This document shows positions 5,252 through 21,250 of a stretch of DNA of 64,000 nt, piece by piece. The position numbers and the translations under genes were made by a program. How positions within the stretch are numbered: the first letter of the stretch is position 1; every line of letters starts with the position of its first letter. The DNA comes from Acidobacteriota bacterium (GTDB lineage: Bacteria > Acidobacteriota > Vicinamibacteria > Marinacidobacterales > Marinacidobacteraceae). Below the pieces are notes generated by a model. The model was not told the origin of the DNA. It saw only the letters and a program-made list of their open reading frames with translations, and made no database searches. The stretch covers positions 248,001-312,000 of the forward strand of contig JAJDUD010000061.1 in the NCBI GenBank assembly GCA_022826825.1, written 5' to 3'.

Positions 5252-8200
5252 TTAACGGCGCCTTCGGTGTAGTACCAGAGCACGTTCAAGGCGCGCTAGC
5301 ATGTCCTCCCAATGCTCAGGGGCAGCGGCTGGAACCAAATAGGGGCGAATTTGCTGATACCTCATGTGAGTTTCGCGCCGCGATAGTGCGGGTTGCAGTT
5401 GTCGGAGCGCCGCCTTCTCACTGGAATCAAGGCCAATGCGAGTGCATTCGGCTAAGCGTGCTCGAGCCTGCGCCGTGGGGCTGGGTGATTCCGAGCTGAC
5501 CTGAATTCCCTTCCGTAACAGCTCAGGTAGCCCAAACAGACACGCGAGGTGCGGTACAACTTGAAGAGCAAATCGCCGCGCCTTGTTGCATGTCTTGACT
5601 AGATGCGGCGCCGTCCCGAAAGCGATTTCTAGTTCACAAAGAGGATGCCCTCGCATCCAAAGCTCCGTCACTGGGCCTAGCGTGCGAAGGACTAGGTTGG
5701 CCTTCTCTTCCTCCGTCGGGCAGCGCGTGTACTTTTTTCCAAACAAAGAAATCAGATGGTTCGAGCGAATCGCCCCCTCCAACAAATGCGGATTGTCCGT
5801 GAGCCAACCAAAGAACCAGCGTGTCCAGTCGAGAATGGTCGCCGTCTCGTGCGGGGGTCTCTCATCAACGGCGAGACTCAGGCGTTCTACGAGTTCGGTC
5901 GACAGACCGAATCGTACGGCCAGCTCGCTGGCAAGCGTGGCGTTACCTTGGCCTTCTCCATGTGACTGTAGGTAATCAATCGCGCTCTTTGTCCGCTCAC
6001 GGAGCCATTCGTCATCACCCCTTTGTCGCGTCACAAAGGCGGCAAACGTCTTGCCGATAGCGACGGACAATTGCTCTTGCACTGTTTCACCGGGACCGCT
6101 AGCCGCAAGTCGCGCAACGGCGTAGCGCTCGATATCGCCTATGCCTGTAGCCCGTGTGTGGACGCGATCTAGGAGGCTACGCAAGGGGTCTTCGATCTCA
6201 AGGCACTGATCCGACTGCCCGAAAATCTCACGAAGCGTGCCCCAGCGGTCACCAATTTCGGCTTTGTCTATGTCGATATCGACAACCCTTCCCGGTACGA
6301 CGAGGACGACGCCTGCAGCGTTTTGGCCAGCTCGGCCGGCCCTGCCTGCGGCGTTCAGTAGTTCCTGTGCCTCCAAGATCTTCCGCTCGTTGCTCTCCGG
6401 ATCGAACCGGCTGTCCTCCCCAATCAAGACCAGGTCACACGGAAGGTTCATGCCCTGCGCCAATGTGGACGTAGCTGCAAGCACCTTCAGACCGCCCTCT
6501 CGTCTGAAGAGCGCCTCACAGACACGGCGTTCCGCAGGCAAGAGAAGGCCGTGATGTGAACTGGCGTATGTGGTGACACGACCGTCGGCGTATTTCAAAT
6601 AGAGGTGATCTCTGTCGCCAAGTTCCAAGATAGCGAGTTGGATCCACCGCTTCTCCTGTTCCTCTAGTGCTAAGTCGGCCGCTCCGAGTTTGTCAGATAC
6701 CGTGCGGGCCGCCTTGGCGGCATTGGGCACGCTCTGAAAGAACGCCAGGACCCGCAATCCAGATTCGCTGGCGGCCGCGGCAATCTCTTCGGTCACGTGC
6801 ACTGCATTAGGCGTTAGCCTCCAGAATCGATTCACACCAAGTTGAACGTGTTCTGCTATCAATCGTTGCAGGGAATAGTCGAGAGTTCTGCGGCTGGCCC
6901 ATGTTTGCCTTAGGCTGAACAGCGCCATCGGCACGGCCGTGAGGCGACGCTTAACCGCGAGCGGCGGCTGGCGTGTAGGATTGACTTCACGGGCCGATTG
7001 CAGCGTGTCTGCCAGTGAGTTGATTCGGCCTCTCTGGTACACAACCGCGCCAGAGAGTTGCCGCGTTGGTTTCCACGAGAGGTCCAGCGTAAGGCAGGGT
7101 CTCCCAGTCAGGCTTTGAATCCACTCGGCCACAACACGAGCGTTCTTCATCATCGCGGAGAGGAGAAGAAAGTCAGCCCGGGGAAAGCAAACCGCGAAAT
7201 TGAGGAGACATAGCATCGCGTCGATTGCGCGACGATCGCTGGAGAGCCCTATCCCGTGGAGGAGGTGGCACTCGTCGAAGACCAAGAGTCCGGTACGCTC
7301 AAATGCTGAAGAGTTAAGCGCGAGTTGCGTTAGGCATGATTCCGGTGTCATTACGAGGACGTCCGGCGTCTGGTCTTCGTCGGGTGAGTACAGGAAGTCG
7401 TCGACGCTCTTCCCCTTTACGCGCGAATCGGGCAGGGAGTCCTGAAGAACGGTAGCCGTCTGGTCGACCAGTGCGTTAGTGGGTGCCAGGAAAACGACCC
7501 GCTTGCGGGCGATCAGGGTTGCGATGATCTTGAGTTCAGCCAGAGTCGACTTGCCGGCACCTGTCGGAAAGCTGACGGCAGAAGAAACTCCGGGCTTGAG
7601 GTAACCTTTGGAGATTGCCCCACGATGGTTCTTCCATAGAGTGGGGCGACGACTGGCGAGTCGACGGATATGGCGACGCCAGCCCGTAGAATCGAGGGTA
7701 GCAGGGGCGTCGAGCCGAGTGACGGCGCTGCGTTGGAGGACCGGCGCTACCGACAACAGGAGGGACGCGAGGTGGTGCGGCCCGGGGAAAGCGCTCACGA
7801 GTTGTTGATCGCTCGTGCTAGGGAGTGCCCCATCGAGTATTGCCAGGGACTTCGCCTCTTGGAATCGGTTGACCGACGCGGGAGTTCGAGCTCGAGGGTC
7901 GGCCATTACATCTTCCGCAAGATCGTGGACACCTTTAAGGATGAGGCGATAGAGCGCAGTACTTGCGACGGCCGCCGCACGATGGACGGGAAAGCGATGG
8001 AGAGGAGGAATGGGCCGTTGCCGGAGAGACGACAACCGACTTAAACCAAGGTCACGCAAGGCGCCGATCAGTTCGTTCTCGACGGAACGGTTCGCGTTAG
8101 AGGCGATCGCCCGCGAGACCTCGGCCGCGTCAGGCGTTGCTTCCGCAACCATGAAGAGCAGCATCGCAGCAATATCACTCGATATTCCCTTGGCGGTCAG

Positions 8201-8527
8201 GTACGTTGACTGCGGATGGGTTGTGAGGCGTCGGCGAGCGATCGCGACGAGCTGGTGAGCACTGGCTGCAATGAATGCAGCAGCCACGCGTTCCTCCCGG
8301 TCGGGCAACGACGTTAGGAGAGCCTCGTGCGTACAGGCCAAACGCTGGAGCGTCGCTACGCGCTCCGAGAGTTGCTCGGGCAGAGTGTCTAGCGGTTGGC
8401 GTAGTGCGATTCGGATAGCGGAAATCTGAGCGAACGCAGCAGTGAAGCCGTCAGGCAGGGACCGCCGGTCGAGACCGGGGAGAGGAGGGCCTGTACCGAG
8501 AAGGTCAGAAGTGACTCGGTCGTACAT
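5252..8527 (-). CDS. Ski2-like superfamily 2 helicase, HamB-like (Hachiman-type defence)
   Basis: 1091 residues. Motifs in order: Walker A FPTGAGKS (about 320-327), AELK just after it, motif Ib-like TPES, DECH box (418-421), SAM motif (LLLSAMMKN, about 455), TLAQGMNLP (about 688-696) and GRAGRAG (728-734). The AxFPTGAGKSTLAELK pattern and the TLAQGMN/GRAGR pair are those of Ski2/Hel308-like DNA helicases. The first ~300 residues and last ~300 are helical and unassigned. It starts 7 bp after the nuclease-like gene and is surely co-transcribed. In Hachiman systems HamB is a DNA-damage-sensing helicase that restrains the HamA nuclease. Codon use is less GC-biased than in flanking genes, which suggests transfer. 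Confidence 0.85.
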   Translation of the reverse strand: MYDRVTSDLLGTGPPLPGLDRRSLPDGFTAAFAQISAIRIALRQPLDTLPEQLSERVATLQRLACTHEALLTSLPDREERVAAAFIAASAHQLVAIARRRLTTHPQSTYLTAKGISSDIAAMLLFMVAEATPDAAEVSRAIASNANRSVENELIGALRDLGLSRLSSLRQRPIPPLHRFPVHRAAAVASTALYRLILKGVHDLAEDVMADPRARTPASVNRFQEAKSLAILDGALPSTSDQQLVSAFPGPHHLASLLLSVAPVLQRSAVTRLDAPATLDSTGWRRHIRRLASRRPTLWKNHRGAISKGYLKPGVSSAVSFPTGAGKSTLAELKIIATLIARKRVVFLAPTNALVDQTATVLQDSLPDSRVKGKSVDDFLYSPDEDQTPDVLVMTPESCLTQLALNSSAFERTGLLVFDECHLLHGIGLSSDRRAIDAMLCLLNFAVCFPRADFLLLSAMMKNARVVAEWIQSLTGRPCLTLDLSWKPTRQLSGAVVYQRGRINSLADTLQSAREVNPTRQPPLAVKRRLTAVPMALFSLRQTWASRRTLDYSLQRLIAEHVQLGVNRFWRLTPNAVHVTEEIAAAASESGLRVLAFFQSVPNAAKAARTVSDKLGAADLALEEQEKRWIQLAILELGDRDHLYLKYADGRVTTYASSHHGLLLPAERRVCEALFRREGGLKVLAATSTLAQGMNLPCDLVLIGEDSRFDPESNERKILEAQELLNAAGRAGRAGQNAAGVVLVVPGRVVDIDIDKAEIGDRWGTLREIFGQSDQCLEIEDPLRSLLDRVHTRATGIGDIERYAVARLAASGPGETVQEQLSVAIGKTFAAFVTRQRGDDEWLRERTKSAIDYLQSHGEGQGNATLASELAVRFGLSTELVERLSLAVDERPPHETATILDWTRWFFGWLTDNPHLLEGAIRSNHLISLFGKKYTRCPTEEEKANLVLRTLGPVTELWMRGHPLCELEIAFGTAPHLVKTCNKARRFALQVVPHLACLFGLPELLRKGIQVSSESPSPTAQARARLAECTRIGLDSSEKAALRQLQPALSRRETHMRYQQIRPYLVPAAAPEHWEDMLARLERALVLHRRRR

Positions 8528-8534
8528 TCAACAC

Positions 8535-9338
8535 CTAGAGGTCTTCTAATGCGGCGACGGCTAGGTGCGCGATGTGGCAAAGCCAGGAACGCAACTCCTG
8601 TTGATAGAAGGTCTCCGCCCGGCGGCGTGCGACATTGGGGCCCTTCACAGCGTTCTCGTATCCCGCGAAGAGCCGTTGGCGGCCGATATCGGAGTGCTCT
8701 TTCTCACCCACGGTAATCGCGATGCGGTAGTGGCGGACCGGCTCCCAGAGGGTTGTCTTGATGATCTGGTCGGTGTCTATGTCCGGAACCGTCGCGAGGA
8801 GTGTAGAAACCTCGGATACTAGGAGATGCTCTCGGTCACCTGATTCAATCCTCTGGAAGTCAGGCCAAACATCCCCTCTGATCGTCTGGGTCGGGTGGAC
8901 AGTCGCCTTGTCTTCACAAATTGTCGCCGCTAGAACGGTCCCGTCAAGTGCGTCAAATCGGAGATGAACGCCATCAAACCCTTTGTGTGCCCAGATCATG
9001 TGCGGGGGCGACTTGAGGGACGTCGGGTCTTGCCGGTGCGCGGCCAGCCACGAAATGGCTTGAAATAGCCAACCGTCACGCTGCCACACGTGTTGGGGAG
9101 TTTCTGCGGTCAATAGCTCGATTGCGCCGTCCTTAGCATTGGCGGTTGGCGCAAGTGGCACATTTCCTGTTGCCTCGAGTATGTTGAGCACATGACGGTA
9201 CTGACCCGTAGCGATACGAGCGATCAGCCTGGAGAGTTCGTGTTCATCTGTGATGGACCAGTCAACACCCCGCCATTTGTTTCCCGCACTGATGGGTGCG
9301 ATGGCAATCACTGAAGATAGAGACACGAATTCATGCAA
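8535..9338 (-). CDS. HamA/DUF1837-like effector nuclease (Hachiman-type defence)
   Basis: 267 residues. Near the middle the sequence reads HKGFDGVHLRFD (118-129) and then ICEDKAT with Glu142-x-Lys144. An Asp (122) about 20 residues before an E-x-K pair is the PD-(D/E)xK nuclease arrangement, and this arrangement is what the HamA family shows. There is no other recognisable domain. It precedes the helicase by 7 bp, the order expected for Hachiman (hamA then hamB). Predicted role: non-specific DNA degradation on infection, released by the helicase. The family assignment rests on motif, size and partner; AbpA of the related AbpAB system is the nearest alternative. Confidence 0.68.
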   Translation of the reverse strand: MHEFVSLSSVIAIAPISAGNKWRGVDWSITDEHELSRLIARIATGQYRHVLNILEATGNVPLAPTANAKDGAIELLTAETPQHVWQRDGWLFQAISWLAAHRQDPTSLKSPPHMIWAHKGFDGVHLRFDALDGTVLAATICEDKATVHPTQTIRGDVWPDFQRIESGDREHLLVSEVSTLLATVPDIDTDQIIKTTLWEPVRHYRIAITVGEKEHSDIGRQRLFAGYENAVKGPNVARRRAETFYQQELRSWLCHIAHLAVAALEDL

Positions 9339-13261: not shown

Positions 13262-13945
13262 CTAGACCTCTTCCTCGAGAAGTTGGCCATGCTCCCTTAG
13301 CCAGTCGCGTGCCCTGTCCATGGCAGGCACTTGTGCCTTCACTATGTTCCAGAATCGCGGCGTATGGTTCGGTTCCAATAAGTGCGCGAGCTCATGGGCT
13401 ATTACATAGTCGATGACAAAGATTGGCGCCTTAATCAACCGCCAGTTGAGGTTAATGTTGTCGCGAACTGTGCATGAGCCCCACCGATACCGGCTATCAA
13501 CGATGCGCGCCTTCCCAAAGGAAACGCCAAGCTCTCGAGCTCGCTTCGCCACGCGAGGCAGAACGCGTTCTTGTGCTCGCGCGATATACCACTCGCGCAT
13601 CGCACCCTTCTTGTGATGCACGCGCGATGCCGGCACCAGAAAACGCTGATCAAACTGAATAGATTCGATCCCTTTGTTGACAATTTCGATACGGTAGCTG
13701 CGGCCAAGGTATAGTGCAGACTCACCATTGACGAACTCTTTGCCAGGTGGGTGAGTCCGACCCGTGTACTTTTGACTGTGCCGTGTCTTCTCGTAAATCC
13801 AATGCCGCTTGGCATCGACTATTCGCGCAACTGTTTCATCGGACGCGTGATTCGGAGCGTACACAACGACTCTTCTGTCACGTTCGATAGTGATCGTGAC
13901 TTTTGCTCGTCTTGGCGATCTCTTGACCGAGTACGCGATATCCAT
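13262..13945 (-). CDS. YgjP-like zinc metallopeptidase domain protein (DUF45)
   Basis: 227 residues. Zinc-binding motif HELAHLLEPNHTPRFW with HExxH at 184-188 and a third ligand downstream, plus the YRWGSC motif (153-158) that marks YgjP/DUF45. It starts 5 bp after hsdR ends, so it is the last gene of the type I restriction operon. This partner is common beside hsdR genes. Its role there is unproven; trimming or turnover of the endonuclease subunit is a reasonable guess. Confidence 0.85.
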   Translation of the reverse strand: MDIAYSVKRSPRRAKVTITIERDRRVVVYAPNHASDETVARIVDAKRHWIYEKTRHSQKYTGRTHPPGKEFVNGESALYLGRSYRIEIVNKGIESIQFDQRFLVPASRVHHKKGAMREWYIARAQERVLPRVAKRARELGVSFGKARIVDSRYRWGSCTVRDNINLNWRLIKAPIFVIDYVIAHELAHLLEPNHTPRFWNIVKAQVPAMDRARDWLREHGQLLEEEV

Positions 13946-13950
13946 AGCTG

Positions 13951-16900
13951 CTAGTCCGCAAAGAGTATGATGTCGTTGTTCTTTTCGGCAATTTCCATAG
14001 TACGACTAATGATATGCGCGCGATTCTCGATGAGGCCGGGCAATTGCGCAAACTCCGGCGCGAGGAGAACTCCCAGAATTTCTGCTTTCAGCTTGTTGCG
14101 GGCCGGGGTGCTCTCCCAAAATCCTGCCAACCTTAACTCCCTCCCAACTATCAGAGTCACTCGCTGTGTCAGATCTACGAGATAGCTGATCCGATCTTCG
14201 TGTTCGATTCCATAAGCAGCGTGCGTCTCAGCGACCCGAAACGGATCGTCAGGGTTATCCACGCTGAAGAGCTCGCGCTCAAACATTCGAAAGAATGGCA
14301 TCTGCTTCTTTCGATGTAGTCCGTATGTTGGCTCGTTGCTATCCTTGACGATCCGCGCCCGCAGCTTCTCTAGTTCTTCATAGATCTTGTTCCAGTTGTC
14401 GCGAAACTGCTCGAAAATGGACGCCAGAGCTTGGGCGAAGGAAGCACGTAGGTCCGGGTCATCGTCCAGGTCAATCTCGAGGTGGTGGCGGATCGCGTGC
14501 GCAATCTCGGCTGCCTTGGTCTTCGTCCGGCGGCGCGCGCTGACGCTCTTCTCGAAGTCTTCATCCAGGATGGAGATTGGCGCCACCTTGACGTCAACGC
14601 CCTGGGATTCGAGATGGGCATCCGTGATAGCGCGCAGTTTCGCCGGGATCCCCTTCATGCTCAGCCGCTGGTCGCGGAAGTGCTTTCCGCCGAGCGCATT
14701 TATCTCGGCGAGCGCCTTGTAGTCGCCAAGGTAATCGAGGGCCTGACGGGCCGGCAGCAGAAGATTGAGCGACCTTGTCAGGCGCTTGAATGCGAGCATG
14801 AAATCAAAGCGGAGATCCTCGTCGTAGAACACGTCGTAGAACGCGTCATGATCCGTCATGTCGGTGAGCCCGTGCTTCGTCAGCATCTCCATCACGGCGG
14901 CGTGGGCGTCCTTGAGTTCCCGCAACTCGTCCTCGGGAAAGCTCAGGGCGCCAATGATCTCTCGCTGTTCGCGCTCGTCGTAAGTGTCGATCGCCTTCTT
15001 GAGGTGGTGGCCAATGCCGACATAGTCCACCACCAAGCCCTTGTCCTTGAATTCGCCACTCACGCGGTTCACACGGGCGATCGCCTGCAGCAGGTTATGG
15101 GCAACGACCACTTTGTCCAGATACATCACCTGCTCGACCGGGGCATCGAAACCGGTAAGCAACATGTTGTTGACGATAAGGATGCCCAGGTCGCCGTGGA
15201 CGCCGTCTTCTTCACGGCCGAACGATAGCTTGAAGCTCTTGATGCTCACCTGGTGCCGTGATGGGTCGGAATACTCCGTGAGGTAGGGCAGGTCGTTGTG
15301 GCGCTTCGAGATCACGACGTCTGTCCTCATCTTCTTGAGCCGCCCCAGGTCCAGCTTGTCCGCATGGGCCAGCTCCGGTTCCGCGATGGCCGCCGCAAGT
15401 GCCGCGTCTAGATGTTTCTTGTAGCGCACGGCCGCCTCGCGTGACGTCGCCACCACCTGCGCCTTGTAACCGTTGGGGAACACATGCGCGAGGTAGTGCT
15501 TCACCATGTCCTTGGCCTTGGCCTCGATGGTGGACTCCGCCTCAAGATAGGCGTCCCGCGATCCGTACCCGAGGACATCCAAGCGCTGTTGGATGTTGTA
15601 GTCGCTAAACACGTCCTCGAACGCGGCATCCATCCTCTCCTGATCGAAGACCTCGGCGTTGTGGGTGCGGCCCTCGTAGACGATCTCCAGCGTTACGCCG
15701 TCCTCGATCGACTGGCGCATCGTGTACTTGTCGATGTAGTCGCCGAAGACCTGCTCCGTCTTGTCGATCGGCGTGCCCGTGTAACCGATCTTGGCGGCGT
15801 TGGGGAGGCCTTTGTCGAGGTTGGTCCCAAGCAGCTTGTACTGCGATCGGTGGGCTTCGTCGGTCATGACGAGGACATTGGGGCTGGCGTTCAGCTCCGG
15901 GAAGGTCTCCGTGAGGTCCGCCTCGCGGAACTTGTGGATCATCGCCATCACCAAGTCGGAGGTATTCGCGGTGACCAGTTCCTTCAGAGCCCTGATGCTG
16001 TCGGCCAGCTTTACCGTGAAGCCAATGCTCTGACTGGTCTCGGATAATTGCTGTTCCAATTGAGTGCGGTCGGTAACGAAAACGACCTTCCAGTTGGAGA
16101 GCTGCGCGTGACGGTACATCTCGCGAACCATGAACATCATGGTGAGTGACTTCCCAGAACCCTGGGTGTGCCAAATAATGCCACTACGCTCACGGGGATT
16201 CCGGCCCCCGAGCAGCCGCTTAACCGCTAGCTTCACCGCGCGGAACTGTTGGTAGCGGCCGACGATCTTGATCATCTGGCCCTCGTCATTCGTCGAGAAA
16301 AGCGTGAAGGTCCGAATCAGGTCAAGAAGGTTGTCCCGTTCGAGCATGCCGGCAACGAGGCGCTGCTGATCGTTGGGGCTGCCTGAGCCGTGGTCGAGCT
16401 CGTCCACCGTTCGCGGATACGGGTCGGCCCAGCGGTAGAAGTACTTCTCCGTGTGCGTGGTGATGGTACCGAACTTAGCTTCCTGCCGGCAGGTCGCCAC
16501 TACGAACTGGTTGTAGTAGAACAGCGGCGCATTCCCTTCTCTCTTGGCTCCGCGCTGCTCGCTGTAGCGAAGAAGCTGATCGATCGCCTCGGGAATCGCG
16601 TCCTTGACCTTGGGCGATTTGCACTCAATCACCACCACTGGAAGGCCGTTGAGGAACAGCACGATATCGGGAATGATGTGGTGCTCCGTGCCGAGGATGC
16701 GGACCTTGAACTGGCAGACTGCGATGAAGCGATTGTGGTCCGGACTCGCAAAGTCCACGAAGCGGACGGTCGGGCTCCGTTCGCCACTCTGACGGTTCTC
16801 GCTCACGCTGGTGTTCTCCAGCAGGAGCTGGAACAGGTGCCTGTTGTTCTCCAGCAGTCCGGTGCTCGGGAAGCTCGCGGTAAGCTGCTTGATGGCCTCC

Positions 16901-17127
16901 TCGGCCTGATCGTCTTCGAGCCAGGGATTGATGACACTGAGTCGCTCGCGCAGCACCGGCAGCATCACGACCTCGGTGAAACTCTCCCGATGGGTGTCGG
17001 CGGGAGTCTGCTTCATGTCCGTCAGGTCGATGACCGTCCAGCCTAAGCTCGCAAGCTGATCGAGCAGCGGTCTCTCGACGTGATTGCGCTCGTCTAGCCC
17101 AATGTGCTGTAGCAGCCTAGCGTTCAT
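13951..17127 (-). CDS. hsdR: Type I restriction enzyme, R (endonuclease/translocase) subunit
   Basis: 1058 residues, normal for HsdR. The nuclease domain carries IIPDIVLFLNGLPVVVIECKS, with Asp154 and Glu168-x-Lys170. The motor has Walker A HTQGSGKS (320-327), DEAH at 422-425 and GYTGTPID (motif III). The C-terminal helical part runs to about 1058 and would contact HsdM. All catalytic residues are present, so it should be active. Its ATG overlaps the stop codon of the short relic upstream (ATGA), indicating coupled translation. Composition is more A/T-rich than the core genes. Confidence 0.95.
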   Translation of the reverse strand: MNARLLQHIGLDERNHVERPLLDQLASLGWTVIDLTDMKQTPADTHRESFTEVVMLPVLRERLSVINPWLEDDQAEEAIKQLTASFPSTGLLENNRHLFQLLLENTSVSENRQSGERSPTVRFVDFASPDHNRFIAVCQFKVRILGTEHHIIPDIVLFLNGLPVVVIECKSPKVKDAIPEAIDQLLRYSEQRGAKREGNAPLFYYNQFVVATCRQEAKFGTITTHTEKYFYRWADPYPRTVDELDHGSGSPNDQQRLVAGMLERDNLLDLIRTFTLFSTNDEGQMIKIVGRYQQFRAVKLAVKRLLGGRNPRERSGIIWHTQGSGKSLTMMFMVREMYRHAQLSNWKVVFVTDRTQLEQQLSETSQSIGFTVKLADSIRALKELVTANTSDLVMAMIHKFREADLTETFPELNASPNVLVMTDEAHRSQYKLLGTNLDKGLPNAAKIGYTGTPIDKTEQVFGDYIDKYTMRQSIEDGVTLEIVYEGRTHNAEVFDQERMDAAFEDVFSDYNIQQRLDVLGYGSRDAYLEAESTIEAKAKDMVKHYLAHVFPNGYKAQVVATSREAAVRYKKHLDAALAAAIAEPELAHADKLDLGRLKKMRTDVVISKRHNDLPYLTEYSDPSRHQVSIKSFKLSFGREEDGVHGDLGILIVNNMLLTGFDAPVEQVMYLDKVVVAHNLLQAIARVNRVSGEFKDKGLVVDYVGIGHHLKKAIDTYDEREQREIIGALSFPEDELRELKDAHAAVMEMLTKHGLTDMTDHDAFYDVFYDEDLRFDFMLAFKRLTRSLNLLLPARQALDYLGDYKALAEINALGGKHFRDQRLSMKGIPAKLRAITDAHLESQGVDVKVAPISILDEDFEKSVSARRRTKTKAAEIAHAIRHHLEIDLDDDPDLRASFAQALASIFEQFRDNWNKIYEELEKLRARIVKDSNEPTYGLHRKKQMPFFRMFERELFSVDNPDDPFRVAETHAAYGIEHEDRISYLVDLTQRVTLIVGRELRLAGFWESTPARNKLKAEILGVLLAPEFAQLPGLIENRAHIISRTMEIAEKNNDIILFAD

Positions 17128-17276
17128 GCCACAATCCTGGAATAAAACCGTTGTTCTTTCGGTTCGGTCCTGGCATCGATCACGTCGTCACCTTGAACGG
17201 TCAGTCCACGCGGAAAACCTATTGTGAGCGCATTGATCTTGCGGAAGTTGCGCATTTGTAGTTCACGGAGCCACAT
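17124..17276 (-). pseudogene. Relic N-terminus of a RecF/OLD-type AAA ATPase between hsdS and hsdR
   Basis: A 50-codon frame on the minus strand, too short to be listed by usual cut-offs. It begins MWLRELQMRNFRKINALTIG and continues FPRGLTV, which is how RecF/OLD-like SMC-type ATPases start (strand, LxLxNFR, strand, then VGxNGxGKS). Here the sequence leaves the family right where the P-loop should come (TVQGDDVIDARTE) and ends RFYSRIVA. The stop overlaps the hsdR start (ATGA). An ATPase gene at this position is common in type I operons. So it looks like a large internal deletion that left a fused remnant, now serving as a translational leader for hsdR. Confidence 0.55.
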
Positions 17277-17306
17277 CTGTATGCCGCCCGTTCCAGGTGC
17301 CACTGC

Positions 17307-18566
17307 TCATGTTGTGATCCCGTCGCGTTGTCCAAGCAGCGACGTCACGCGGCGTTTGCCCGTGAGCAGATCCTGCATCAGGCCGGTTTTCAGAAGGCGC
17401 AGCTTCCGGAGTGAGGCTTGGGAGGCTTGCAGACCGTCCGTCATTCGTCGAATCCAGGAGTAGATTCGGACGAACTCCAGATCATCGCCGGGCCATGGGA
17501 GCACAAAGCTGCGAACTTGCTGATAGTTCAGGCCCTCGCGATTGCCGCCCGCGTTCAGTTGCAAAATCTGATGCTGGCCGATATGGGACTCCAGTACAGC
17601 GGCAAGAAAGCCGGCAGTTGCCTCTGTAGAGTCAAGAAGCCGGATAGTGCAGACATGCTGGTTCACGTTTGCGTAGCCATTAACACTGGGCATACGACAG
17701 CAACGGCCAATCGATGCCCCGGTAATGTTCAGCAAGACGTCGTTCTCGAACACTTCGCTTCGAAGCATAGACAGATGGATTTGTTCGGGGATATACGCCA
17801 CATCATTGAGCCGCAGTCCATCGAAGTGAACATTTTGACTTCGAATGAACAGTACGCCGTCTGCCGAATATGCGCTCTCACCACCGATTGGAGTAACGCC
17901 GCTGCCAACGCGAGATGTGATCTGGTGGAGCTTCACTGCACTCCACTCCACCGGAATCCGCCCGAGCGGGGAGTCCTTGAACTCGTGGGCCCTGTCGGAG
18001 CGAAGATTGCCACCCTGGTCGAGGCCGCGGGTGAGCAGGTTCTGCACCAGGCCGGTCTTGATGCGCTGCTGCTTTGCAATGAGGGCCTCGGTCTGCTCGA
18101 TAACCCGATCCACCGCCGAAAGGATCTTGGCAATCGTGGACTGTTCACGTACGTCGAACTCAATGATCGCAAGGTTACCGAGAATCTCTTTGTCGACATG
18201 CGGGATGCCGGAGCCCGAAGTTTGTCCCTTTAGGTATGGCTCCCAGTGTTTGAGCGCATAGAAGAAGTAGGAATCGTCAAAGCGTCCTGCATGCGATGCG
18301 CGACTCATCGTCGACGCGAGAATGCCATCGCGGCCACGAAGAACCTCCCCTGCGTTAGATCCGTCCCAAAGCAGAATCGTATCGCCGTCCTCAACGCGGG
18401 CACAGCGAGGCGCAGCCTTGACCAATGCGTACTCTCTACCCGTGCGCAGGTACGCCGGGGTCAAGTACCGGTCGGCGTCTGGTCCGTAGTATGGTTGTGC
18501 GGCAGGCGGCTTTCCCTTCTCGAGCGTGACACAGCAGCGAAGCCTCACTTGGGTTGGCATTCTCAT
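17307..18566 (-). CDS. hsdS: Type I restriction enzyme, S (specificity) subunit
   Basis: 419 residues with the two-fold HsdS plan. The first recognition domain (about 30-150) contains [19 protein letters not shown] and ends [13 protein letters not shown]; a helical spacer follows ([23 protein letters not shown]). The second domain contains [20 protein letters not shown] and NQHVCTIRL and leads into a second helix ([22 protein letters not shown]). Each domain reads half of a split DNA target. The ATG overlaps the hsdM stop (ATGA). The target sequence cannot be read from the gene. Confidence 0.92.
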
Positions 18567-21250
18567 TGGCGGTACCCCAAAGCTTCAACGAAGCGGCCCA
18601 TCTTGGCGAGGGTCGTCGCTCGATCACTCTCTAATGTGTGCGCGGATATGGCGTACTTCTCCCATAGATTCTCGACGGCTCGCACTAGTACGCGCTTCTC
18701 CGCGTTGAGGTAGCGGTCGAGCTCGACGCGGGCGATGTCGTAGATCTTCGTCAGGACTAGGCGGCGAGCGTCGGCCTCGCTGATCTGGCCACAGACCGCC
18801 TTGAGCAAGGCGTCCGTTCGGGCTAGGCGGGCGTTTAGCGCTTGCTTGTCCTTCTGGAGCGCGGCGATGATCTTCTTGTCAGCCCTCTTCTTCGGATTCA
18901 GCCCCGTGAGACGAGCATCCGCCTGGGCGATCAGCTCTCGGGTCTCAGTCTTGAAATCGCCGGTGCCGAGGCGCTTAAGTTCAAGCTTGAACTCTAGGTC
19001 TGCGGCCCCTTCCTTGAGCGTCTCTCTAGCCTCCTTGATGCGCTTCTCGATTGCCTTGATGGTCTTGTCCTGATCCGTGAGGTTCTTGAGCTCCTTCTTG
19101 GCGGAAGTGCTGGCGTTGTGCTTCAAGTCGTCGATGAGTACCTTGAGGGCCTTCTTGATGACGGCGGCAGTTACCTTCTTGTTCTGGTCCGGCTCATAGG
19201 CGCTGACCTCCTGGGCGGTATCGACGGCTTCGGAGAGTTCGCCTTGGTCTTCGGCAATGGTCGCCTTCAGCGCCGCGATGGCCTCGGCCTCGTCCTGGAA
19301 GTACTCGACGATGAGATACTCATCGGGGATGAGCGTGTGGTGCCAGCCGGTGGAAACGATGGTCTTTAGGTCGTAGCGGATCCGCTGCCACCAGTTGACG
19401 AAGACGCCGGCACTCTTGAATTCGTCGAGCACGCCAAGTGGCACAAGCTTGGCCTTGAGGGTGGTGAGGAGTTCGTGCCGGACATCGGGCATCTTCTTGC
19501 CGCCGTTGTCCGCATGCTGGAGTTGGGCGAAGTCGTCCTTGGCAACCGCCCACCAGGATTCAAGGGCGTCTTGGTGCCGCGTGAGAGCGCTCTGCAGAGC
19601 CGGGGCCGTTTCGAGCGTGGCCTTGATGGCAGACTTGGCGTCAATGGACTCGCGAAAGGCGAGGTAATGGGGACGGCCGGGCGCGAAGAGTGAATCCGGA
19701 CTAACGCCGAACTTGGCGAAGTCGTCCGCATGCGCGGCGACCTCCGGCTCGGGAATTCCTCCGATGAGGTGCGCCTGCACATCCTCCGGCTCGGGGTCGG
19801 GTGTGTTGTCCACGTAGCGGCGGACGTTGAGATTGAAATCGTGGGTATCCACGATCTCGTACCTAGGTACAAGGCGCGAGTACTTGGGCAACTCGCGCTT
19901 GTGGGTGAAGACCAAATCGATTTTCTCCATGTCCTCAGGGCGAAGCCGGTTTTGGTTCTTGCCCTCCGCGTATTCCCGGTCGGCGTTGATGAAGAGAATC
20001 TTGTACTTGAGTTTGTCGGGCTTACTCTTGTTGCATACCAACACACAGGCGGGAATGCCCGTGCCGTAGAAGAGACCAGGCGGCAGGCTGATGATGGCCT
20101 CGATGCAGTCGTCGTCGATCAGAAGCTCGCGAATGAGCTTTTCCTTGCCACCCCGGAAAAGGACACCGTGCGGCATGATCGTCGCCATCCGGCCGTTGGG
20201 CTTGAGGCTGGCGAGCATGTGTTGGACGAACATCAGGTCTGCCTTCTTGCCCGTCTCCGGGCACCACTCCCGAAAGCGACTGGTGAACTTCATGCTCGCG
20301 CGGCTGTAGTTCTGCGAGAACGGCGGGTTGGCGAGTACACGGTCGAACTTGCGGATTTGGTCCTCTTCGAGGATGAGCGGATCCTCCAGCGTGTCCCCGT
20401 TCTCGATGGTGAATCGGGTGATGTTGTGGAGGATCATGTTCATGATGCAGATCGACCAGACCGTGCCGTTGGAGTCTTGGCCGTAGAGGGCCAGATCGTC
20501 GGGGTCCTGGCCGTGCTCTTCCACGTACTGGTGGGCCTGGATGAGGAAGCCGCCAGAGCCGACCGCGGGGTCGTAGATCCTGTTACCCGCCTCCGGCTGA
20601 GTGAGCTGGACCAGCAGACGCACGACCTCGCTGGGCGTATAAAACTCGCCGCCTTTCTTACCGGCGCTGTCGGCGAAGACCTTGATGAGGTACTCGTAGG
20701 CGGCGCCGAGCAGGTCGGGGAACTCGAAGTTGTCGTTGACGAGGACGAATCCGGGCCGGCTGAAGTGGTCCAGCAGGTCTTTCCATTTCTGGTCCGGGAT
20801 TTTGTTCTTGCCCTTCACCGCGTTGAAGTCGATGTTGTTCTTCAGCACCCCGGCGAGCGGATAGTTCTCGTCCTCGATGGCCGCGATAGCCTTGTTGAGC
20901 ATGTTGCCGATGTCATGCTTCAAGTCCTTCAGCGCCGGCACGAGATCGCCGTTATCGTCTTGCCAAGGCTCGTGCCAGCGGGCTCTGACGGGGACAAAGA
21001 AAGTCTCGCCATAGGATGTCTTCTCTTCGAGCAAGTCGGTGACGAGACCCGGCCGGTCTCTGAGGTGTGCGAAGGTCTTCTGGCGGAGTTCCTCGCGTTT
21101 GCGGTCGAACTCGTCGGACAGCCGCTTCAGGAACAGCATGCCGAAAATGAACTCCTTGAATTCCGAGGCGTCCATCTTGCCGCGCAGGATGTCGGCGGCC
21201 TTGAGAAGGAAGGATTCGAGTTGAGCGAGGGTGATCTTCTCCTGTTTCAA
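18563..21250 (-). CDS. hsdM: Type I restriction enzyme, M (N6-adenine methyltransferase) subunit, long form
   Basis: 895 residues. An N-terminal helical HsdM_N domain ([20 protein letters not shown]) is followed by the methyltransferase core with DPAVGSGGF (228-236) and NPPF (308-311). Ordinary HsdM is about 500 residues; here ~370 extra residues follow, with a strongly charged coiled-coil-like stretch (about 680-830, rich in Lys, Glu and Leu). The long form occurs in some type I systems. It begins at a TTG at 21250 preceded by GGAGGG; no ATG lies in a better position. First gene of the operon hsdM-hsdS-relic-hsdR-YgjP-like. Confidence 0.92.

Follow-up and report, generated by a model that had tools for sequence, protein, structure and literature searches.

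A 50-codon frame between hsdS and hsdR as the probable deletion scar of a Gabija system nested in a type I restriction-modification operon

Introduction

How does an open frame of 50 codons that begins like an ATPase and ends on the start codon of hsdR come to lie inside a type I restriction-modification operon? The question is raised by a frame at 17124..17276 (minus strand; MWLRELQMRNFRKINALTIGFPRGLTVQGDDVIDARTEPKEQRFYSRIVA) of the window, the 64,000-nt stretch of an Acidobacteriota contig analyzed here. The initial annotation of this DNA took the frame for the N-terminal relic of an accessory ATPase deleted from between hsdS and hsdR, and suggested that it might persist as a leader peptide coupling translation. 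Comparison with related loci leads us to a broader reading, in which we place high confidence: a Gabija system was nested in this type I operon and was lost through one deletion of about 3.36 kb, which left the 50-codon frame at its junction.

Results

The hsd operon and the fused frame

The operon runs along the minus strand of the window, with hsdM (18563..21250; 895 aa from a TTG start; Pfam N6_Mtase and HsdM_N), hsdS (17307..18566; 419 aa; Methylase_S) and hsdR (13951..17127; 1058 aa, uninterrupted; HSDR_N, SWI2_SNF2 and T1R_D3-like) followed by a gene for a YgjP-like metallopeptidase (13262..13945, minus strand; Pfam YgjP-like). The three hsd genes are open frames with the Pfam domains expected of type I restriction-modification genes, and they look intact. 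The 179 nt between hsdS and hsdR consist almost entirely of scar and spacer derived from Gabija. Here lies the 50-codon frame, also listed as 59 aa through a 9-codon GTG extension upstream; its TGA stop and the hsdR ATG form the 4-nt overlap ATGA, and it is present once in its own genome. Elsewhere in the window, a 1091-residue helicase (5252-8527, minus strand; PADLOC HamB E 4e-32, PDC-M23B E 3e-32) adjoins a gene of 267 residues (8535-9338, minus strand) with no PADLOC match, and the two are possibly a Hachiman-like pair.

The first half of the frame is the beginning of a GajA protein. Residues 1-27 are 74-85% identical to the N-terminus of the ~570-aa GajA of related loci (L004, L008, L009, L010 and L036), a tblastn search of the frame against 81 loci returned GajA matches in the equivalent place with E-values of 2e-9 to 2e-11, and the PADLOC GajA models match the same residues from model position 1 (E 0.001 with the 50-mer and 0.0003 with the 27-mer); judged by these scores, the resemblance is far beyond chance. 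Pfam returned no match for the 59-residue version of the frame. In the intact relatives the GajA P-loop, GENNSGKT as read from the DNA, begins at residue 30, and the junction in the window falls at residue 27. The initial annotation was thus right in seeing an ATPase N-terminus whose family is lost at the P-loop position and whose stop overlaps the hsdR start. No P-loop, TOPRIM or helicase domain is left at the locus: just codons 1-26/27 remain of a GajA with its ATPase and TOPRIM domains, just FKVTT and a stop remain of the UvrD-like helicase GajB, and a second GajA was not found elsewhere in the assembly. Over gajA codons 1-26, dN is 0.08-0.14 between the window and intact copies and 0.02-0.16 among the intact copies; these codons are not clearly decaying, which may mean a recent loss or too small a number of codons to tell.

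Intact Gabija loci in relatives

A search of GTDB species genomes yielded 165 HsdR relatives, the best 80 of which were kept for comparison (L002-L081). Among these 80 of 165, hsdS lies upstream on the matching contig and strand in 59, at a distance of at most 400 bp in 15 and of 621-7,223 bp in the remaining 44. In six loci (L004, L008, L009, L010, L036 and L062) the hsdS-hsdR slot carries a gene of ~570 residues and another of ~600-690 residues. Scanned directly, the pairs of L010 and L008 are GajA (PADLOC E 1e-154 and 9e-151, respectively) and GajB (8e-87 and 1e-87), with Pfam AAA_15 and an OLD-like TOPRIM in the former gene and a UvrD helicase in the latter; the pairs of L004, L009, L036 and L062 were assigned to Gabija by clustering with these two. 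The lost cargo, adjacent GajA and GajB, is judged on intact relatives, which hold between hsdS and hsdR the whole accessory genes of which the window keeps a remnant. This is what the initial annotation had predicted for related hsdMS-X-R loci, and the relic aligns as expected with the first 30 residues in all six. The six loci bear labels from several phyla, but all are metagenome-assembled genomes whose bins may be wrong. A seventh, more distant Gabija pair occupies the equivalent slot on a Methanosarcina-labelled contig (L070, 4348-7913).

The probable deletion junction

The blocks flanking the junction were mapped by blastn, with window positions 17000-18700 as the query against the relative loci. 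The left block, comprising the end of hsdS and the start of gajA, stops at 17197 in all six intact loci. The right block, comprising the end of gajB, the spacer and hsdR, starts by BLAST at 17197 in L008, L010 and L062, and at 17209, 17191 and 17187 in L004, L009 and L036, where the register set by eye brings it to 17197 in all three. The junction thus lies at 17197..17198, with a 1-nt overlap (T), and subtraction of the left anchor from the right shows that 3,357 bp are missing with respect to each of the six.

On the gajA side, the remnant at 17198..17276 (minus strand), delimited by GajA homology, the DNA block and PADLOC, consists of 26 whole codons and the initial base of codon 27; the T that follows, at 17197, is common to the gajA and gajB sides. 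On the other side, DNA alignment with the intact loci identifies 17180..17197 (minus strand) as the 3' end of gajB, reading FKVTT and a TGA stop in its own frame. The corresponding tail is FKVAT-stop in L008 and FRVAT-stop in L062, and in L010 the gajB frame continues beyond the position at which that of the window stops. The 52 nt at 17128..17179 (minus strand) are the former gajB-hsdR spacer, equal in length to that of L004 and L008. Residues ~28-50 of the fused frame derive from the gajB 3' end and this spacer, in another frame. Measured against intact hsdM-hsdS-gajA-gajB-hsdR loci, the 3,357 missing base pairs indicate that the deletion took both Gabija genes; the proposal of a deletion between hsdS and hsdR therefore stands, but extends to gajA and gajB rather than to an ATPase alone. 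The pair of homologous blocks, the breakpoint, the size of the missing segment and the want of any other GajA in the assembly are direct observations; we infer from them that the loss was a single event and that it was a deletion in the window lineage or in its donor.

Direction of the change

In a FastTree phylogeny of 81 HsdR rows, the window HsdR falls in a clade of 14 rows (support 100) that contains all six Gabija loci, and its closest relatives share 82-88% identity with it. For three members of this clade (L003, L011 and L044) the contig does not include the slot; among the ten with a visible slot, six carry Gabija, four carry other cargo and none is empty. The four non-Gabija loci (L002, L005, L006 and L007) all lack, by blastn, both the gajA block and the spacer block. 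Gabija has a scattered distribution in this clade, with five changes for six rows, which points to frequent swapping of cargo; the tree alone would accordingly not prove loss, and the last cargo of the direct ancestor is read from the scar instead. The polarity of the change is set by the protein family, since the GajA N-terminus belongs to it: the PADLOC profile matches from its first position, and the alignment with solved GajA chains begins at residue 5 or 6 of the L010 protein, so that the short form is derived and the direction is that of loss. The head of the window hsdR, MNARLLQHI, resembles those found in Gabija loci, such as MKARLPQHI (L008) and MKAKTPQHI (L004), and provides a further link to them; where a GmrSD-like gene comes last, the head is MNSPDKTPKHI or MSSSGKTPQHI (L002 and L007). 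More broadly, hsdR codons 1-8, ahead of LDERNHVEKPLL, vary with the adjoining cargo across L002-L081, as if the two travelled together. The comparison set contains no closely related strain pair with and without Gabija, which counts against the reading of loss.

Alternative explanations for the fused frame

The alternative that survives best, although we consider it unlikely, is that the fused frame is a working leader, on which ribosomes stop at ATGA and restart on hsdR, and that the deletion was kept because it coupled hsdM, hsdS and hsdR more tightly. The ATGA overlap does exist, and no other layout at hsdR is as common among relatives: an open frame that lies upstream and spans 100 codons or more ends in this manner in 40 of 72 loci by script, a count in which L009 and L062 are spurious, their overlaps being alternative gajB frames, and for which in L008 the script took a GTG upstream of the ATGA start. 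Since the overlap is common at hsdR, coupling is possible, and this notion also draws on the 52-nt gap that separates gajB from hsdR in intact L004 and on gajA codons 1-26 showing no obvious degradation. Nevertheless, one junction frame in three yields an ATGA stop by chance, the frame is unique to the window, and hsdR retains an AGGA of its own ahead of its ATG. Moreover, in the hsdS-gajA spacer (17277..17306, minus strand) the ribosome-binding site that once served gajA reads GGGCGG in the window, as opposed to GGAGG in all six intact loci, and its predicted duplex amounts to -5.8 kcal/mol, compared with -9.5 to -10.7 kcal/mol in the six. This site is weaker than in every intact locus, yet not absent, and it looks decayed. 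The corresponding values for hsdR in L008, L009 and L010 were left out, because the start scored there was a nearby ATG and not the ATGA start. The overlap on which the initial annotation had based translational coupling is thus genuine, but the coupling itself is unproven.

There is little to commend the possibility, which we regard as very improbable, that the junction is an assembly artefact fusing strains with and without Gabija. The sequence does come from a single draft assembly of 77 contigs and 93% completeness, and the junction is known from assembled sequence alone. Against this, it shows no run of N and both of its sides differ from all references to a similar degree; its overlap is of 1 nt, and a de Bruijn misjoin would need a longer one. 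Finally, that the frame encodes a bona fide small protein accessory to hsd loci, with no loss involved, is scarcely credible: it does have an ATG, is uninterrupted and forms part of an operon, but none of the 80 loci (the best 80 of 165 relatives) encodes a stand-alone version, and its second half does not follow the gajB frame and corresponds elsewhere to gajB tail and spacer. A conserved short frame of this kind, or the lack of an ATPase at this site in every relative, would have spoken against the relic as first proposed, and neither is what the 80 loci present.

Turnover of cargo in the hsdS-hsdR slot

The slots of the relatives also carry traces of apparent exchanges. Each hsdR was cut into tiles of 80 codons and these were searched in the 44 slots longer than 400 bp. 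The tile of codons 1-80 gave plus-strand matches in six of the 44, amounting to eight fragments (L007, L015, L021, L028, L049 and L064), while the other 12 tiles matched none of the 44 slots and no tile matched on the minus strand. These hsdR 5' fragments are 10-76 codons long, lie beside cargo and mostly follow one cargo gene and precede the next; in L015 the fragment stands before a cargo-gene remnant, and in L049 between hsdS and cargo. Two more are present in L017, which is outside the 44-slot test, no hsdS having been found on its contig, and in L036 some 30 nt of a Gabija-type hsdR start lie between gajB and a GmrSD-like gene. Matches in four other loci were not counted as hsdR scars: that in L019, to hsdR codons 32-46, is short and weak in both protein and DNA, and those in L002, L030 and L060 are confined to DNA.

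Truncated pieces of other cargo occur in six of the 45 slots longer than 60 bp: codons 3-58 of a GmrSD-like gene in L035 (1799-1966), codons 1-21 of a different cargo gene in L045 (7796-7858), and pieces in L015 (8170-8358), L016 (6747-7067), L064 (5445-5585) and L007 (5455-5571), the last two of which are followed by a full copy. A match in L027 was dropped as doubtful, since it seems to be the end of the adjacent gene in that locus. To judge from this content, the hsdS-hsdR slot of these relatives is a site of cargo turnover, and the simplest reading, drawn from one HsdR family, is that of serial insertion beside hsdR that leaves old hsdR heads behind, together with partial deletions like that in the window.

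Distribution and origin of the operon

No orthologous HsdR was found in 99 relative genomes, the own genome alone having it, with the next best matches being paralogues of ~41% identity. Likewise, the junction DNA is absent from 192 other genomes of the class, two of which have matches of 24-25 nt that we take as chance. A single draft assembly thus carries the junction, and the restriction operon was probably acquired horizontally. The same genome encodes a second HsdR, 40% identical (L086; G000:C64:11582-14227), with a similar one in a genome of the same genus (G005). Four pattern hits to HsdR in viral contigs were discarded, none being a relative. On plasmids, HsdR appears in 20 records, two of them at 60-80% identity and 18 lower. 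A plasmid with a 70% identical HsdR has several toxin-antitoxin-like genes in the slot, and one with a 58% identical HsdR has a slot without cargo; on both, a SprT-family metalloprotease neighbours the hsd operon, as the YgjP-like gene does in the window.

Discussion

The sequence of events that best accounts for this locus would start from an ancestral hsdM-hsdS-gajA-gajB-hsdR arrangement, with Gabija nested inside the type I restriction-modification operon. A single illegitimate deletion with a 1-nt overlap would then have excised some 3.36 kb, beginning at gajA codon 27, immediately ahead of the P-loop, and reaching the final five codons of gajB, and would have eliminated Gabija while hsdM, hsdS and hsdR remained open. 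The 50-codon frame would be the resulting junction frame, any effect that it might have on hsdR translation would be a by-product, and its peptide most likely has no function of its own. Gabija combines an OLD-family nuclease (GajA) with a UvrD-like helicase (GajB), and the relic corresponds to the first 26-27 codons of the former and the last five of the latter; unlike the intact relatives, the window has lost both genes.

Type I operons with defence genes inside them are already known, and we regard the feature in the window as a new instance, namely the deletion scar of a nested defence system. Published examples are prrC, embedded in the EcoprrI operon (PMC3874165, PMC12707154), and DarTG2, which lies between hsdS and hsdR in an island of enteropathogenic Escherichia coli, at a site called a potential recombination hotspot (PMC12255303). 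Both are accessory anti-phage genes inside a type I operon, as in the Gabija relatives, whereas the cargo of the window was Gabija and is now lost, leaving a scar. The order hsdM-hsdS-hsdR followed by a metallopeptidase gene is likewise shared by the window, the two plasmids and the E. coli island with its M48 gene (PMC12255303); compared with such operons, the window differs in the mostly Gabija-derived content of its 179 nt between hsdS and hsdR. Our literature search found no report of Gabija between hsdS and hsdR, nor of hsdR 5' scars.

Regarding the mechanism of gain, we tentatively suggest, at somewhat less than even chances, that the slot is a cassette-exchange site anchored on the conserved hsdR head (around LDERNHVEKPLLDQL), into which cargo would bring its own hsdR start, recombine into or beside the old head and leave scars of 10-76 codons, with deletions clearing cargo. 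The hsdR 5'-end scars between cargo genes of the relatives offer a testable idea of how cargo is gained and, were this idea true, the order of the scars would record the order in which defences were added. More generally, whether defence systems have been gained or lost is usually deduced from their presence or absence, and in this case the loss of a complete Gabija system can be mapped with single-base precision. The host operon stayed open after this loss, suggesting that a restriction system can lose its nested defence cargo and itself stay unbroken. The scar in the window would capture bacterial immune genes in the course of their turnover.
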